Positions 3,157-11,994 of a stretch of 12,212 nt of DNA are shown one piece after another (position 1 is the first letter of the stretch; every line of letters starts with the position of its first letter). The notes under the pieces were generated by a model. The model did not search any database. It was given only the letters and a program-made list of their open reading frames with translations, and was not told the origin of the DNA. This stretch comes from Epsilonproteobacteria bacterium 4484_65 (GTDB taxonomy: Bacteria; Campylobacterota; Campylobacteria; Campylobacterales; Sulfurovaceae), in the NCBI GenBank assembly GCA_002085305.1, contig NATJ01000070.1, positions 1 to 12,212 on the forward strand. Direction: 5' to 3'. A program made the position numbers and the translations under genes.

Positions 3157-4161
3157 TTATTTAGCATTGAAAAAATACTGTTGTGCTTCTTTTTTCTCTG
3201 CAAAGGGAGAGACAGTTATCGTCTCATCTCCAACTTCGACATCATAGCTCTCTTCTGCTGAACTTCTTGCATAGGTCATGGCTAATTTTGCGGCCAAAGC
3301 TCTGTCTGCACTGCTTGCATCTGAACTTAAAAGAGAAAAAGGGCCACCTATAGGTAATCTAATGGTGACATATTTATCGCTCTGGATAGCTTGCAAACCT
3401 TCATTGTCTTCTTTGTCACGTCCTACTGCAAGTTTTGCACCATCAGGAAGCCTGAAATGCCGACCGAATTTAAGCAACTCTATATCTTCTACCTCAAAGG
3501 TATCAAAAGAGATGAACTCTTTGATACGATCAGAATAGTGAGATTCTGTCAACAGGCAACCACCACCCGGAGACTCATAGTCTTCCCAGCCATATGCTTC
3601 TGCCATTGCCAACTGTCGTTCACGGCTACGACCGGAAATGTCAAGCAGTTTTTCTCTATCTATCCACCCTTCCAGTTCTGGGGTCGTCTCTTCCATCAGC
3701 TTTGCAGACATTGGACGGACTATCAGTTTTTCCTCTTTATCATCCGCCAGTTTAGCAACCTGCTTCATGGCATCATGGCGCTGGCTCATAGGACGCTGCC
3801 CTATCACTTCACCTGTAAAGATAAATGAAGCCCCTAACTCCGGCATCATCACTTTGGCTATCTTGAACATATACCCGTGACAGTCGATGCAGGGATTAAA
3901 GTTTTTTCCATAGCCGTGTACCGGGTCAAAGAGAATATTTTGAATATACTCTTCACGTACATCCACCATCTTAAACTCTGCACCTGCCATCTCGGCACGC
4001 TGTTTCATAACTTCAGAGACATCTTTTGTGCCGCCAAACCCTATCTTGATATGCAGGGCAATGACATCTATGCCCTGGTCAACCATAAGCTTGATAGCGA
4101 TCATGCTGTCAAGCCCTCCACTGAACATTGCTAAAGCGCGTCTTTTACCAGTTTGTGTCAT
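3157..4161 (-). CDS. PP-loop ATPase, MnmA/ThiI-like tRNA sulfurtransferase relative
   Basis: This 334-residue protein starts with an N-type ATP pyrophosphatase PP-loop, FSGGLDS (residues 13-19), which adenylates a substrate in tRNA thiolases and related enzymes. A CxxC motif follows in NPCIDCHGYMF (C91, C94), then GEVIGQRPMSQ near 117-127 and SPGGGCLLTE with C202. Three well-placed cysteines could hold an iron-sulfur cluster or provide the catalytic persulfide pair, as in MnmA/TtcA-type enzymes; this is inference. The C-terminal third resembles the extra domain of short MnmA-like proteins of Campylobacterota that are often annotated as 'tRNA methyltransferase' by legacy naming. I recall such a gene beside dnaG in Helicobacter. 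Its start overlaps the dnaG stop by 17 bp, implying translational coupling. The exact RNA substrate is unknown. Confidence 0.75.
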   Translation of the reverse strand: MTQTGKRRALAMFSGGLDSMIAIKLMVDQGIDVIALHIKIGFGGTKDVSEVMKQRAEMAGAEFKMVDVREEYIQNILFDPVHGYGKNFNPCIDCHGYMFKIAKVMMPELGASFIFTGEVIGQRPMSQRHDAMKQVAKLADDKEEKLIVRPMSAKLMEETTPELEGWIDREKLLDISGRSRERQLAMAEAYGWEDYESPGGGCLLTESHYSDRIKEFISFDTFEVEDIELLKFGRHFRLPDGAKLAVGRDKEDNEGLQAIQSDKYVTIRLPIGGPFSLLSSDASSADRALAAKLAMTYARSSAEESYDVEVGDETITVSPFAEKKEAQQYFFNAK

Positions 4162-5509
4162 AGCTTATAAGCTCTCCTTTTTCTAATCTCGGAATTATAT
4201 CTGTTCTTAACTTTCGTATGAGAAACATCTTTTTATCTGAGGATAGTGACGTATCTCTTGGCAACATTTTTAATTTTTTCTTATAATATCTAATGAGAAA
4301 ATTACGAAGGTCTATGAATAAACCTTCCTCACTCATTACCTGCGCATCTTCACTAATCGAAAGTCCAACAAGAGAAGGATTTTCATACTCCCCATTAAGT
4401 AACGCAGTAAAAAGTGTACTGTAGTCTCCAAACATATCAACATCTACAACATCAAGCACACCATCTATAAGCTCAGGCTTCTCAAGTAATGTTTTTAGAA
4501 TACTAAGCTGTATCGATGTATCATCTCTTTGTTGTGAAAAACTATCTTTTACTTTTGCGACATTGGTTTGCTTCCCAAAATATGCAGGTGATACCCCTAA
4601 AAGTGTAGCAGCCATAGGGATATACGAATCTTTGATGATCTGGCTTAAACTCTCCAAGAACTGCTTAGCTGTACCAAACGCTGCTTCTTTGGCACGCGGG
4701 TCATTCAGATCATACGCATAAATGATCTTCTCTAACACGAAAGGGATGAGTGGTTTGGCTTCACGAAGCAATTTTGCTACCTCTTCACTCTGCCCTTTAG
4801 CTATAAGGTCTGCAGGATCCTGCCCATCAGGGAATAATACTACACCTCCATCAAAGTTTGCGACACTCAACATCTGTGCAGCTTTCAGTGCAGCAGCCAC
4901 CCCCGCTTTATCACCATCATACGCCAAGATGATCTTAGGGTCACCCTTTCGAAGCAGTGGCAGATGTTCCGGAGTAAGTGCTGTACCCATACTTGCCACA
5001 GCTTCTGTAAAGCCTGCTTGATGGAACATCACCACATCAAGATACCCCTCACACACAATGAGTTTTTTATTTTTATAAATACTCTCTTTTGCCAAGTCAT
5101 AACCATAAAGCAGACGTGATTTATTGAAGAGTTTTGTTTGAGGTGAGTTAATGTACTTGGCAGGATGATTGGTAATGGTACGTCCACCAAAACCTACCGC
5201 AGCACCACTTGTAGAGAAAATAGGAAAAGTAATACGCTCTACCAAACGGGCATAATACCCACCACCCTCACCTTGTGCTATGATCCCTGCCTCCAATGCT
5301 TTAGGCAGAGGTAAAAGTGCAGAATTTAAAAAATGCATGACAGAAGCACCATCGGGTACATATCCTATGCCAAATCGCTGAATGGAACTTTGGGCGATAC
5401 CCCTGTCTAAAAGATACTGTTTTGCAGTGGGGTTGTTTTCCAGGTTTTTTACATACCAGGTCTGTATGGATTCAAGTACACGTTTGGCATCGGAGTAATC
5501 AGAGCTTTT
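4145..5509 (-). pseudogene. dnaG: DNA primase DnaG, core and C-terminal part, without its N-terminus
   Basis: This frame has no start codon of its own. It is open from just after an in-frame TAA at 5510-5512 and reads KSSDYSDAKRVLESIQTWYVKNL, then the primase core. The residues match DnaG from about E. coli position 110 onward. The RNA polymerase subdomain contains ITFPIFSTSGAAVGFGGR and KYINSPQT. The TOPRIM fold has its glutamate in VCEGYLDVV and its metal-binding aspartates in YDGDKAG. The C-terminal helicase-binding domain ends in ISYDTNW. DnaG makes the RNA primers for replication. This part alone lacks the zinc-binding domain and the start of the polymerase domain. The first internal ATG (5338) is well inside the conserved domain and unlikely to be a true start. 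The 3' end overlaps the PP-loop gene by 17 bp. Confidence 0.85.
4162..4179 (-). promoter_or_regulatory. Ribosome binding site and palindrome ahead of the PP-loop gene
   Basis: On the minus strand a strong AAGGAG is followed by a perfect 12-base palindrome AGCTTATAAGCT that ends immediately before the ATG at 4161. The linear spacing of 12 bases is long. Folding the palindrome into a 4-bp stem with a TATA loop would bring the ribosome binding site close to the start codon. All of it lies inside the last codons of dnaG. Confidence 0.4.
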
Positions 5510-6543
5510 TTATCAATATGTGCTTGATCTATATACAATGAAGGTATCTGTTCTAAGGAAATAGCCAAATCAAGTAAAAGGTGAGATAAGTTTTTACTGA
5601 TCGTTTTATATGTACGACGGCTATGACAACCATCCCCATCCATCAGTCCTTGGAATAATCCTTCTCTTCGTTCAATACATAAATAATTAAAGAAGTATGG
5701 ATAAGATTTTCTACTAGCTCCCTTGGAGAATAATTTCTGAAATATATGTTCTAAATTTGTACTTGAACAAGTGACTTCAAGAGAGTTTTTTCTTTCTTTT
5801 GGTAAAAATATTGATGCTTCTTTGGAAAATGTATTTTTTAGTATTTTAATTATTTTTTCTGCATACTTATTTTCTTTTCTGTTTAATGAAAACTTTATAC
5901 CACCTCTATATGTACTACCTTCTGATATATACATACCAAAAAGCCACATTAATTCTTGAGAAAGTGTTATAGTGTCTATCTTGGACACATTGGGACCAAA
6001 ATTGTTTTTTTCCCAATAAGAAGAGACATCCAAGCTATCGCTCTGTATAATATCCCTATCTATAGGGTAAAGGAAATAGTCTCCTTTTTTAATGTCTCTC
6101 GCAAATACTACTTTACTTATAAGTGCATCTGTCTGATAAGATTGATTTTTTTTGATACGTCCATAAAACTTTAAAGGTCTGGATTTCTCAACTCTTATAT
6201 AAGGTAAGTTACTTAAAATATCCTCTTTTTTTACTACTACCATATCATGATTTTGTGTAAAATATGACCAGTCATTTATAAGATCCGTTTTAAATTTTAG
6301 CATCCCATATTGTGGTTTATGGTTCAATGTTTTAACAACTTTTGTTGCTTTACCGTTCGAAGCAAAGACAAAATCACCCACCTCTATATTTTCAATAGCT
6401 TTCAGACCTTCGGTTGTTCGTATCATTTCATGGGGTGCAAGACAGCCAAAACAGTGGTATATCTGCTTGCTTGGACTTACTACAAAGCTAGGGGATTTTT
6501 CTCCATGAAACGGACACTTGCTGATTATCATTATTAGCCTCAT
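5449..6543 (-). pseudogene. dnaG: DnaG zinc motif fused to a truncated intein (5' part of broken dnaG)
   Basis: Counting residues from the ATG at 6543, residues 10-33 run from CPFHGEKSPSF to YHCFG: the DnaG CHC2 zinc motif minus its last cysteine. At residue 34 (codon 6442-6444) the protein turns into an intein starting CLAPHEMIRTTEG, so the intein sits directly before the fourth zinc ligand. The residues before C10 (MRLIMIISK) do not look like DnaG. They are antisense to the start of the LapB-like gene, so about 39 primase codons are missing. The intein stays recognisable to about residue 346. The remaining residues, up to the stop at 5449, are out-of-frame DnaG sequence. The frame overlaps the downstream DnaG frame (open from 5509) by about 60 bp in a different phase. 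As given, no functional primase can be made from this locus. Confidence 0.8.
5506..6444 (-). mobile_element. Intein with LAGLIDADG homing endonuclease, C-terminal splicing region missing
   Basis: About 313 intein residues are present (34-346 of the frame that begins at 6543). Splicing block A is clear: Cys1 then HEMIRTTEGLKAIENIEVGDFVF (34-60). Block B has the TxxH motif in YFTQNHDMVVV (T96, H99). The endonuclease has two LAGLIDADG helices: LFGMYISEG (201-209, acidic residue E208) and FQGLMDGDG (297-305, acidic D304). Between and after them is a typical DNA-binding endonuclease body. Blocks F and G, with the terminal His-Asn and the +1 Cys, are absent: intein sequence stops at an A6 run (5506-5511) where primase sequence in another frame begins. 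The region is visibly more AT-rich than the flanking primase, consistent with horizontal arrival. Protein splicing should not be possible; the endonuclease domain could still fold. Confidence 0.85.
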
Positions 6544-7516
6544 TATTGCACTCGCTACTTATGGTTGGGGACTTTATAGACAACAAAAGGAGCAAGGGAA
6601 TCTGCTCAAATTTTTAGATAAATTTGACAGTACCGAGTGTGCTCTTGATACCACTGATATGCCTTTTGAACCTCATATGCTTAAGCCACTTACTTTACTT
6701 GCTAAAGCTTTTGAAAACTCAGGGGAATACCATAAATCTATCAATATTTATCTCTATTTGATCAAAAATATCTCCGATGACCTAGGAAAACTTGAACTCA
6801 TGGAAAGACTGGGGAATACTTATCTTCATGCAGGATTTTTGGAACGTGCCAGATCTATCTATGCAGAGATCTTACGCAAAAAACCCCGTAATATCAAAGT
6901 ACTTTATGAATTGGGTGTCGTGTATGAAATGATGCACAAATATGATAAAGCAAAAGAAGTGATAGAACCATTAGAGATGCTTGGAGAGGAGACGCATGCC
7001 CTGACAAAATTTCTTGAACTCTCTGAAATAAAATCCAGTAAAACGATCTCTATAGAGGAAAAGGTAGAAAAACTCCATAAAATTCTAGAAGCGGAACCTA
7101 CACTTTATAGAGAAATAGTAAATACTATGCTGCAACTGGATACAAGAGTAGCATGGGAGATCATCGATCCTGAACGCCTGAAAGAGGTAATAGATATCCT
7201 CTGGTTCTTACCAAATTCACAACTCGATTTAGATACAATTACATCCAATACACAGCTAAATACACTCTACTATGCCAAAGGATATTTACAAAAACCAATT
7301 GTCCAAAGTGGTATCTTTAGTCTTGACATGTTAGCCACCGCAAGAGAGAGTGGATTTGAGCAGGGAGATCTGCTTTTTTCATACCTGTGTAAAAAATGTA
7401 AACAGAGTTTTCCTGTCTCCTTTAGACGATGTCCAAATTGTATGGCAATAAACTCTGTAGAAGTTGAGGAAAAAATTGCAAAATCAAGCCCGAAAACAGA
7501 TTACTCTCTACTCTGA
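6518..7516 (+). CDS. LapB (YciM)-like membrane-anchored TPR protein with C-terminal zinc ribbon, 5' end possibly lost
   Basis: This encodes about 332 residues. A hydrophobic N-terminal helix (LIIIISLIIALATYGWGLY) is followed by a linker, then TPR repeats around residues 50-165 (for example GEYHKSINIYLYLI, LGNTYLHAGFLERARSIY and LGVVYEMMHKYDKAKEVI). The C-terminus has a rubredoxin-like CxxC-x10-CxxC zinc ribbon (C291, C294, C305, C308). This order matches LapB/YciM, which in Escherichia coli controls LpxC turnover with FtsH and so balances lipopolysaccharide synthesis. Equivalent function here is inference. The start is doubtful: the frame upstream is closed by TGA at 6506-6508, there is no ATG, GTG or clear ribosome binding site, and only TTG at 6518 is available. 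The 5' end overlaps the broken dnaG head to head, so the true start was probably lost with the dnaG 5' end. It overlaps rnhA by 41 bp. Confidence 0.7.
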   Translation: MLIIIISLIIALATYGWGLYRQQKEQGNLLKFLDKFDSTECALDTTDMPFEPHMLKPLTLLAKAFENSGEYHKSINIYLYLIKNISDDLGKLELMERLGNTYLHAGFLERARSIYAEILRKKPRNIKVLYELGVVYEMMHKYDKAKEVIEPLEMLGEETHALTKFLELSEIKSSKTISIEEKVEKLHKILEAEPTLYREIVNTMLQLDTRVAWEIIDPERLKEVIDILWFLPNSQLDLDTITSNTQLNTLYYAKGYLQKPIVQSGIFSLDMLATARESGFEQGDLLFSYLCKKCKQSFPVSFRRCPNCMAINSVEVEEKIAKSSPKTDYSLL

Positions 7517-7919
7517 CGGCTCTAGCCTCGGTAACCCAGGGCCAGGCGGTTATGGGGGTATACTGGAGTTTAAAGGAAAGTGCAAAGAGTACTTTGGTGG
7601 TGATCTCCATACCACAAACAACCGTATGGAACTTCAAGGTGTCATCGAGGGGCTCAAGCTTCTCAAAGAACCTTGTGACGTAGAGGTAATATCTGACAGT
7701 TCTTACGTGGTCAAAGCGATCAATGAATGGTTAGCCGGATGGGTACGTAAAAACTTTGCCAAAGTAAAAAATGTAGACTTATGGGAAGCCTATCTTGATG
7801 CTGCAAAGCCACACAATGTTCACGGGACATGGGTCAGGGGTCACAACGGACATCCGGAAAATGAACGCTGTGATGAACTGGCTCGAAATGAAGCGGAGAG
7901 AATAAAGGCTACGTTATAG
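7476..7919 (+). CDS. rnhA: Ribonuclease HI
   Basis: This 147-residue enzyme cuts the RNA strand of RNA-DNA hybrids. With the start at TTG 7476, the catalytic set is D14 ([18 protein letters not shown]), E52 (NNRMELQGV), D74 (ISDSSYVV), H123 and D133 ([17 protein letters not shown]), matching D10, E48, D70, H124 and D134 of the E. coli enzyme. The basic handle region [15 protein letters not shown] is present. TTG at 7476 is chosen over TTG at 7464 because a GAGGA ribosome binding site lies five bases before it; there is no ATG. The 5' end overlaps the LapB-like gene in another frame, so translation is probably coupled. A 26-bp inverted repeat separates it from rnc. Confidence 0.93.
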
Positions 7920-7920
7920 C

Positions 7921-8000
7921 TGTAGCGTGGGCATTCCTGCCCACGACCTGAACATATCAATTGCAAGCAATTGTTCGTGGGCAGGAATGCCCACGCTACA
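7921..8000. repeat. Paired inverted REP-type hairpins (family A), perfect 26-bp inverted repeat
   Basis: The arms 7921-7946 and 7975-8000 are exact reverse complements of 26 bases, with a 28-base centre that itself contains CAATTGC-AA-GCAATTG. Each arm also folds alone: an 8-bp stem CGTGGGCA/TGCCCACG with a TTCC (or GGAA) loop. GTAG lies directly at the foot of the left stem (7922-7925) and CTAC at the foot of the right one (7996-7999). A GTAG tetranucleotide at the 5' foot of a GC-rich hairpin is the mark of REP elements moved by RAYT transposases. Here two units face each other with tags outside. It fills the rnhA-rnc gap and ends 25 bases before the rnc start. Confidence 0.9.
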
Positions 8001-8025
8001 AAACCAAAATAAAAGGAACAAAACA

Positions 8026-8697
8026 ATGAACAACTACAGTCAACTCGAAAAGCGACTGAACTATACATTTAAGAACAAGCAATTGATTATTGAGGCTTTG
8101 ACACACAAAAGTGACAAAAAGCCTTACAATAATGAGCGGCTTGAGTTTTTAGGAGATGCCGTACTTGACCTTATCGTAGGTGAGTATCTTTTTTCTAAAT
8201 TCCCCAACTCGGATGAGGGTATACTTTCAAAAATACGTGCTTCACTTGTCAATGAAAGTGGGTTTACACTTTTGGCACGAAAGATCAACCTGGGAGAATA
8301 TATTTTTCTCTCCATGGCAGAAGAGAATAACAACGGGAGAAACAAACCTTCACTGCTCTCTAACGCTTTTGAGGCTGTGATAGGTGCCATTTACCTTGAA
8401 GCCGGATTGGCTGCTGCAAAAGAAATTTCTGTCAAACTGCTGGAAGAGTGTCATCCTAGAATTGATCTGCAATCTTTGTCAAAAGATTACAAAACCGCCC
8501 TTCAGGAGTTGACACAGGCAACACATGGAGTCACTCCACTTTATGAGATGTTAGGTTCTTCCGGGCCCGATCATAAAAAAGAGTTTGAGATCGCTGTAAT
8601 ACTGGATGAAAAAACGATCGCCACGGCAAGAGGAAAAAGTAAAAAAGAAGCACAGCAAAAAGCAGCAAAAATTGCATTGGAGGCATTAAAGTTATGA
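8026..8697 (+). CDS. rnc: Ribonuclease III
   Basis: This 223-residue enzyme cleaves double-stranded RNA and processes rRNA and many mRNAs. The signature [19 protein letters not shown] is at residues 36-54, with catalytic E40 and D44. The second catalytic block, [18 protein letters not shown], carries E116. The C-terminal double-stranded RNA-binding domain begins near [11 protein letters not shown] and contains [10 protein letters not shown] and [17 protein letters not shown]. The residue aligned with E. coli D114 appears to be Asn (N113). The frame is open upstream to 7927, but that part is read-through of the REP hairpins. The ATG at 8026, with an AAAAGGA ribosome binding site, gives the usual start [11 protein letters not shown]. 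The stop overlaps the aroC start in ATGA, so the two are translationally coupled. Confidence 0.95.
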
Positions 8698-9776
8698 ATA
8701 CCTTTGGGAAAAAACTGACACTGACTACATTTGGTGAATCGCATGGTAAAGCTTTAGGGTGTATCCTTGATGGTGTACCTGCAGGACTTCATATAGATGA
8801 GGAGTTCATTCAGTCTGAACTAGACCGTAGAAAACCAGGGAAGAGCAAACTTGAAACCGGACGCAAGGAAGATGACAAATTTGAAATACTCTCTGGTACT
8901 TTTGAAGGGCTAAGTACCGGTACACCTATTGCAATGGTGATCTTCAATACGAATCAAAAATCTAAAGACTATGACAATGTCAAAGACCTCTTTCGTCCGG
9001 GACATGCTGACTTTACCTACTTCCACAAGTATGGACTCAGAGACTACCGTGGAGGCGGACGAAGTTCTGCCAGAGAAACGGCTGCAAGAGTGGCAGGTGG
9101 GGCCATAGCCAAACTGATGTTAAAAGAGTTAGGTGTTTCTATACAAAGTGGGCTTTGTGAAGTAGATGGGATCAAAGGTGAAGTACAAGATTTTGAACAT
9201 GCAAAAAGTTCTAAAATGTATGCCCTGGATCCTGCTATGGAAGCAGCACAGGAAGACGCTATCTTAACAGCAAAAGAGAATCATGATTCCGTTGGTGGTG
9301 TAGTCTTGACCACTGCCACAGGTGTACCCATAGGTCTAGGTGAGCCCCTCTATTACAAACTTGATGCTATTTTAGCTGAAGCGATGATGGGCATAAACGC
9401 AGCCAAAGCTGTAGAGATCGGTGACGGAGTAGCAAGTACACACCTCAAGGGAAGTGAAAATAATGATGAGATCACCTTAAACGGTTTCAAAAGTAATCAC
9501 TCGGGTGGAATGTTAGGTGGTATCTCCAATGGGGACACTATCATCGTGAAAACACACTTTAAACCAACCCCTTCCATCTTTCAAGAACAAGATACTATTA
9601 CCACACATGATGAAGAGGTAAAATGCAACTTAAAAGGACGGCATGATCCTTGTGTAGCCATTAGAGGTTCCGTCGTATGTGAAGCGATGATGGCACTGAC
9701 ACTTGCCGATATGACACTACTCAATATGGGTAAAAAGATGGCGCACCTCAAAGCACTTTATCCCCAATCAAACTAA
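8694..9776 (+). CDS. aroC: Chorismate synthase
   Basis: This 360-residue protein is full length for the family. It makes chorismate from 5-enolpyruvylshikimate-3-phosphate with reduced FMN, the last step of the shikimate pathway. Signatures are [15 protein letters not shown] at the N-terminus (13-27), [36 protein letters not shown] (about 101-136, with the conserved His and Arg residues), [13 protein letters not shown] in the middle and [20 protein letters not shown] near the C-terminus. The ATG overlaps the rnc stop by four bases. In Helicobacter rnhA, rnc and aroC are also neighbours as I recall, so the order is conserved in the group. Confidence 0.96.
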
Positions 9777-11685: not shown

Positions 11686-11724
11686 TTTATCTCCAAATTG
11701 TATTTATCTGTTATGCATATTTTT

Positions 11725-11815
11725 GGTGTTGTAAGGGTACAACACCCTACAGTATTTTCGCCATATTAAATTTAATTTACATTCCAACCGTAGGGTGTTG
11801 TCCCACGACAACACC
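11725..11815. repeat. REP-type hairpin pair, family B, copy 1
   Basis: The arms are 11725-11750 and 11790-11815. Each is an 8-bp stem GGTGTTGT/ACAACACC with a six-base C- or G-rich loop. CTAC (11747-11750) and GTAG (11790-11793) lie at the inner feet. The loops differ (AAGGGT on the left, CCCACG on the right), so the arms are inverted copies diverged only in the loop. The 39-base centre contains a 12-base palindrome ATTAAATTTAAT (11765-11776). The tags point inward, the reverse of the family A pair at 7921-8000. Confidence 0.88.
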
Positions 11816-11868
11816 AATTATCCAAACATTTAAAAGCATTTCATATTTTGTGACAATCCAAGGTTTTT

Positions 11869-11961
11869 GGTGTTGTGAGGGCACAACACCCTACGAATCC
11901 ATTTACAAAATCAACCTTTTATTTCACGTCCAACCGTAGGGTGTTGTCTCCCGACAACACC
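11869..11961. repeat. REP-type hairpin pair, family B, copy 2
   Basis: This is a second copy of the element at 11725-11815, 53 bases further on. Its arms are 11869-11894 (loop GAGGGC, tag CTAC at 11891-11894) and 11936-11961 (tag GTAG at 11936-11939, loop CTCCCG), with identical 8-bp stems. Both copies are preceded by TTTT and share AACC just before the right-hand GTAG; the rest of the centre is different. The four units alternate in orientation, so the inner two (11790-11815 and 11869-11894) also form a tag-outside pair. Together with copy 1 this accounts for most of the 309-base gap between rnhB and the next gene. Confidence 0.88.
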
Positions 11962-11994
11962 AAAAGCACAAACGTTTACGAAATTATAAATCTA

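Follow-up and report, generated by a model that had tools for sequence, protein, structure and literature searches.

A putative mobile intein in the zinc motif of DnaG in some Campylobacterota, and a damaged copy that probably reflects an assembly fault

According to the accessible parts of the respective reports, splicing of the MoaA intein is controlled by a native disulfide between Cys-3 and Cys1 (PMC3922620, PMC10663303), the nucleophile cysteine of DnaBi1 is bound by zinc (PMC7360933), and the Prp8 intein is inhibited by zinc, which occupied Cys1 in some of the crystal molecules (PMC6805012). DnaG has been named as an intein host in eubacteria, in a table that gives no site in the portion of the source available (PMC5874633). 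In the open-access literature, we found no description of an intein at the CFG / fourth-zinc-cysteine site of DnaG, in keeping with the impression of an earlier note on this DNA that the site is not commonly described: DnaG inteins are already known, but the CFG|C site was not found described in that literature. Here, we analyzed such an insertion in a contig of campylobacterotal origin and in related genomes. Taken as a whole, the sequence comparisons make it very probable that a mobile intein resides in DnaG of some Campylobacterota and that the copy from which we started is a damaged record of it, the damage being more likely due to faulty assembly.

The window, i.e., the whole stretch of DNA that was analyzed, comprised the complete contig C30 (12.2 kb) of a 1.13-Mb MAG (124 contigs, 72.1% complete). 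Two frames on the minus strand make up its dnaG, one at 5449-6543 and the other listed at 4145-5338, but readable to 5506. The 5449-6543 frame encodes KCPFHGEKSPSFVVSPSKQIYHCFG, followed by CLAPHEMIRT... as the start of the intein at position 6444. Its CHC2 zinc domain (PF01807) scored 49 bits, above the Pfam cut-off, and 50.7 bits in a search of the whole MAG; the second frame matched the primase core, Toprim and the helicase-binding domain in Pfam. PF01807 had one match across the whole MAG, which was the window dnaG, the C-terminal part of DnaG likewise had a single match, and a search of the MAG for the zinc family and the DnaG C-part revealed no second dnaG. On the minus strand, an N-extein remnant of 25 codons with zinc ligands 1 to 3 (6445..6519, KCPFHGEK...YHCFG) precedes intein residues 1 to 313 of ∼381 (5506..6444), which were delimited by alignment with relatives and include the N-terminal splicing part and the LAGLIDADG endonuclease. 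Cys1 (6442..6444) lies immediately past CFG, where the fourth zinc ligand stands in the sequence. Manual counting from the alignment placed the block B TxxH motif (TQNH) at 6247..6258, LAGLIDADG motif 1 (MWLFGMYISEG) at 5917..5949 and motif 2 (GLMDGDG) at 5629..5649, all on the minus strand.

Elsewhere in the window, a minus-strand gene with HUP/ThiI-like and NFACT-R_2 domains (3157-4161) lies between a PpiC-like gene and dnaG, two genes that are direct neighbors in G010 and G045. A perfect 26-nt inverted repeat with a 28-nt loop (7921-8000), possibly a REP-like element or a terminator, is found between genes that we take from the look of their sequence to be rnhA and rnc. Units of ∼30 nt, repeated and inverted, are clustered at 11720-11978 around GGTGTTGT...ACAACACC, and two near-identical tRNA-Glu(ttc) genes are located at 701-775 and 807-881, spaced 106 bp apart.

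When one genome per species was scanned, 34 pattern matches were obtained, 18 of which were confirmed as DnaG inteins. These 18 loci originated from MAGs titled Sulfurovum, Sulfurimonas, Arcobacter, Campylobacterales, Campylobacteraceae, Helicobacteraceae or Campylobacterota, one of them (L029) from a Sulfurimonas single-cell genome; three whole genomes (G105, G354 and G440) were additional carriers with the same junctions. In this set, we take L016 to be the G045 locus (also L003/L011) and L020 the G010 locus (also L004). The proposal that a bacterial DnaG harbors an intein, made in the earlier note from the window alone, was thus borne out at 18/18 loci and in the three whole genomes, and an insertion of the kind it expected in relatives, of more than 300 residues between CFG and CG, was present at all 18 loci, with 379 to 383 residues and of the LAGLIDADG type. 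Written as CFG|C...VGN|CG, the insertion point separates CFG from the fourth cysteine of the zinc motif. The note's start of the intein at the cysteine after YHCFG (CLAPHE... from 6444) also held, since the alignment of the relatives put the N-junction exactly at CFG|C, identically in 18/18 named loci and in the window copy. The frame was open to VGN|CG in 17 of the 18; the exception, L020, had a one-base frame break within the intein and an unchanged C-junction. In the G010 MAG (L004/L020), this break sits near the end of the endonuclease. G105 exhibited a single open frame from the zinc motif through the intein into the primase, up to the end of the available stretch, and the G045 frame was open across the intein and 224 C-extein residues, followed by a frame change inside dnaG.

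Among 150 relatives, the window's own genome included, eight intein matches were obtained at E ≤ 1e-3, and half of them belonged to the DnaG intein family: the own copy, G045 (74%), G010 (72%) and G105 (55%). The weak matches L006 to L009 were rejected as DnaG inteins, as they represent inteins in other host proteins. Their hosts, all in Campylobacterota, are ribonucleotide reductase (two genomes) and subunit A of gyrase/topoisomerase IV (two genomes).

Block B read TQNH, TKNH or TRNH at 18/18 loci, and TQNH in the window. The C-terminal Asn followed by Cys (blocks F and G) was present in the relatives as VGN|C. The penultimate residue was Gly and not His at 17 C-junctions and in L020, L036, L037 and L005; a penultimate His is usual in inteins, but not universal. 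For profile searches, 15 precursor stretches were used, i.e., the 18 loci minus L020 (frame break), L026 (unread base) and L028 (short end). Intein_splicing, Hom_end and LAGLIDADG_3 were matched in all 15 at E ≤ 0.01, in some cases below the Pfam cut-off, and intein_Cterm in 13. For instance, Intein_splicing scored 32.9 bits in L021, below the cut-off of 35.8, and 39.9 bits in L016, above it; in the window copy, every match to splicing (Hint) or LAGLIDADG endonuclease families stayed below the cut-off. Two LAGLIDADG motifs with the acidic catalytic residue were found in 19 of 20 inteins, with N replacing D in motif 2 of L019, and both motifs are also present in the window. Judged by these alignments, DnaG of the relatives contains what we regard as a real, cysteine-initiated (Cys1) intein of the cis-splicing type, with a predicted LAGLIDADG endonuclease, at the junction of CFG and the fourth zinc cysteine.

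To place the site within the host domain, the intein-less DnaG of G016, from the same genus, was aligned with the solved primase zinc domain 1d0q_A, which gave a gapless alignment. The residues of the zinc motif fell on chain positions C40, H43, C61 and C64 of 1d0q (manual count), which we take to be the zinc ligands, and the intein is inserted after the equivalent of G63 and before that of C64. By this alignment with a solved structure, the host domain is a predicted CHC2 zinc domain of DnaG (C-x2-H...C-x2-C). The motif was uninterrupted in 31/31 intein-less loci examined, of which 21 read CFG|CG by the first motif and the other ten, differing by one or two letters, read straight through. In the relatives, the C-junction is immediately followed by the fourth zinc cysteine.

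The window copy ends after residue 313 of ∼381. Position 5506, which had been taken as the end of the intein in the earlier note, proved instead to be part of a joint with missing sequence (joint 2, 5505..5507, minus strand), at which the frame changes and, compared to G045 or G010, ∼320 or 319 bp are lacking. The loss corresponds to the last 68 intein residues and the following 39 primase residues, including the fourth zinc cysteine. Beyond this joint, DnaG resumes at about residue 100 (G016 numbering), 39 residues past the fourth cysteine, and its remainder with the core, Toprim and helicase-binding domain (4145..5506, minus strand) is in a frame other than that of the intein part. Because the C-terminal Asn, Cys+1 and blocks F and G are missing, the window copy is predicted to be unable to splice as written. 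At the other end, joint 1 (6518..6520) lacks ∼215 bp compared to G045 and ∼204 bp compared to G010, comprising the dnaG start, the intergenic stretch and the start of a divergent gene (6518..7516, plus strand), presumably TPR-like by the look of its sequence, whose first codons are gone. Aligned with the 551-residue DnaG of G016, the window matched residues 35 to 61 and 100 to 550, with Cys1 of the intein opposite position 61; the first ∼34 to 36 residues were absent, as were residues 61 to 99 with the true fourth cysteine. The idea that the intein sits directly before the fourth zinc ligand therefore holds for the relatives, in which the cysteine after the C-junction is that ligand, but in the window the ligand itself is absent.

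The two collapsed stretches are probably an assembly fault of the MAG and not real deletions, the chief reason being that two hits fell on an essential gene and its neighbor; dnaG is essential and, as a rule, single-copy. A comparison of 336 kb in 40 further contigs of the MAG with 2.0 Mb of G016 revealed splits in 6 of 193 genes; bases were missing in five of these (23 to 225 bp), and the frame changed in five of the six. Among 49 control loci of other genomes (231 kb), which were dnaG-centred and unmatched to the MAG sample, 1 of 67 genes was split, namely, by the frame break in G045 dnaG. The difference was nonsignificant (Fisher p 0.68), and splits with loss of bases (5/193 versus 0/67) gave a p value of 0.33 in the same test. 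The window dnaG was missed by this count (0/7 window genes), as its two pieces are too far apart, and was caught by a looser listing. The nonsignificant test slightly reduced our confidence in an assembly collapse, and likewise in the explanation as a whole, and slightly raised that in real deletions. If the deletions were real, the intein and the window dnaG would be decaying, with the gene for a working primase lying in the unrecovered portion of the genome, or the cells carrying this copy would be dying variants. This would agree with the clean joints, each of which has 2 to 3 bp in common with both sides, with the collinearity of 4173-5507 and 6518-9740 with G010, with the 72.1% completeness of the MAG and with a rate of split genes not significantly over the control. 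It is hard to reconcile, however, with the essential and normally single-copy nature of dnaG, with two losses plus a frame change that hit this gene and also cut the start of its neighbor, and with the collapses of 23 to 225 bp seen elsewhere among the genes of this MAG, so that we consider it unlikely. A split intein, whose C-terminal half and next primase part would be encoded elsewhere and joined in trans, would explain why the window intein stops where the endonuclease ends, ahead of the C-terminal splicing part. Yet neither a second intein piece nor a copy of the missing extein stretch (CGVGGDSIKF...) was found elsewhere in the MAG, which is 72.1% complete, and the later part of DnaG continues at the joint itself, only out of frame; this reading was rejected as highly improbable.

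In the intact relatives, the site raises the further possibility that splicing responds to metal or redox state. All 15 aligned precursors read CFG-C1, in which a Cys lies at -3 and Cys1 falls on the position of the fourth ligand, and in L021 the Pfam zinc model aligned over residues 3 to 61, residue 61 being Cys1. Cys1 and Cys+1 are thus both candidates for one zinc-ligand place. The earlier argument that an unspliced primase would have an incomplete zinc site was accordingly not established, as Cys1 stands in the fourth-ligand position; strict dependence of the primase on splicing is likely in intact relatives. Metal- or redox-gated splicing would be a good hypothesis by analogy with other inteins. 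In one form of it, zinc or a Cys-3/Cys1 disulfide would serve as a switch that keeps the precursor unspliced, so that primase is formed only in a suitable state. This form is consistent with the two cysteines in 15/15 aligned precursors and with what is described in the accessible parts of reports on the native Cys-3/Cys1 disulfide that controls activity of the MoaA intein (PMC3922620, PMC10663303), the block of DnaBi1 by zinc on a catalytic Cys (PMC7360933) and the zinc inhibition of the Prp8 intein (PMC6805012). On the other hand, the Cys at -3 serves the primase as a zinc ligand and is conserved in DnaG with or without the intein; hence it gives no sign of an evolved switch, and we consider such a switch quite unlikely. 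Slightly less likely still is that zinc bound by ligands 1 to 3 and Cys1 of the precursor, or a Cys-3/Cys1 disulfide, would block splicing and thereby gate primase and hence replication.

The DnaG zinc domain was detected in 395/397 Campylobacterota genomes; the intein was rare, being found in 4 of the 397 sampled (window MAG included), or in 3/396 good-quality genomes. When DnaG exteins were arranged in a tree (41 rows, 20 with and 21 without intein), intein presence required at least four changes; the tree left out the intein-bearing loci L020 and L028 as well as ten intein-less loci missed by the first motif, and its intein-less rows were those with the best zinc scores and not a random draw, with none from family f16. 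The intein-bearing members of f16 grouped with Sulfurimonas in this tree. In the extein tree, L022 was joined to L033 (100/99), whereas the tree of inteins grouped it with L021 and L023 (100/100). For at least this one member, the conflict between intein and host-gene trees may be read as a sign of movement between lineages. In 4 of the 6 pairs examined, the intein showed lower third-position differences than the distal extein, most clearly in L019/L037 (0.11 to 0.12 versus 0.30) and L022/L023 (0.32 to 0.34 versus 0.56); in L022/L033 and L030/L005 it did not. In the exteins flanking the site, these differences were in places as low as in the intein. Replacement of the intein in L030/L005 (inteins 66%, exteins 97%) was dropped as an interpretation, third-position differences being high in both parts. 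Overall, intein and extein identities were correlated (Spearman 0.68, 171 pairs of 19), and much of the descent therefore looks vertical. The endonuclease is under purifying selection, with a dN/dS of 0.07 to 0.17 in seven chosen pairs, in some of which dS was near saturation. Empty alleles in relatives and apparent transfer independent of the host gene, the two marks of a mobile intein, can both be recognized in these comparisons.

In viral contigs, 151 pattern matches were obtained, none of which encoded a relative. Nine records of annotated phages were matched, eight at 21 to 27% identity over 57 to 100% of the query and the ninth at 42% over 22%, and among plasmids one record was matched at 25% identity over 32%. 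Carriage by phages or plasmids was rejected on these figures.

From established intein chemistry, we infer that in intact hosts the intein would be translated within DnaG and then excise itself by an acyl shift at Cys1, transesterification at Cys+1 and cyclisation of the Asn, whereby CFG-C and hence the zinc site would be restored. The endonuclease would cut within the conserved codons of the zinc motif in dnaG alleles that are empty and would be copied into them. In the window, the two collapsed stretches would then have taken the intein tail and parts of dnaG. The locus is of interest as an insertion site that is both precise and recurrent, and that lies in a replication protein essential to bacteria. 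As both splicing cysteines may compete for one zinc-ligand position, the question of a metal or redox switch becomes directly testable here, in a natural zinc-binding host domain. The window also serves as a warning that an intein may appear shortened in a single MAG contig.

Among known systems, the MoaA intein offers a parallel in its host cysteines, which are metal ligands in MoaA, as the zinc ligands are in DnaG. Like the DnaG intein, that of Pyrococcus abyssi MoaA has a Cys at -3 and Cys1 across its N-junction, as seen in the accessible part of the report (PMC3922620). In contrast, its host is archaeal and of another kind, and disulfide control is experimental there and inferred for DnaG. 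The accessible part of the work on Mycobacterium smegmatis DnaBi1 and DnaBi2 likewise describes a bacterial replication protein as host, with splicing of DnaBi1 inhibited by zinc on the nucleophile and a homing endonuclease in DnaBi2 (PMC7360933); unlike in DnaG, the insertions are at helicase sites (P-loop and H4 motif) and in no zinc motif. The likeness to the MoaA and DnaB inteins is one of descriptions and not of sequence alignment. The intein of a mycobacteriophage TOPRIM protein (primase/topoisomerase) resembles the DnaG intein in its primase-like host, as far as the accessible text goes (PMC5050341), but resides in a phage protein. The best match to a solved structure was PI-SceI (the VMA1 intein), with a sequence profile E value of 1.1e-8 over residues 159 to 343, covering the endonuclease only, and its host, in contrast to DnaG, is the yeast vacuolar ATPase.
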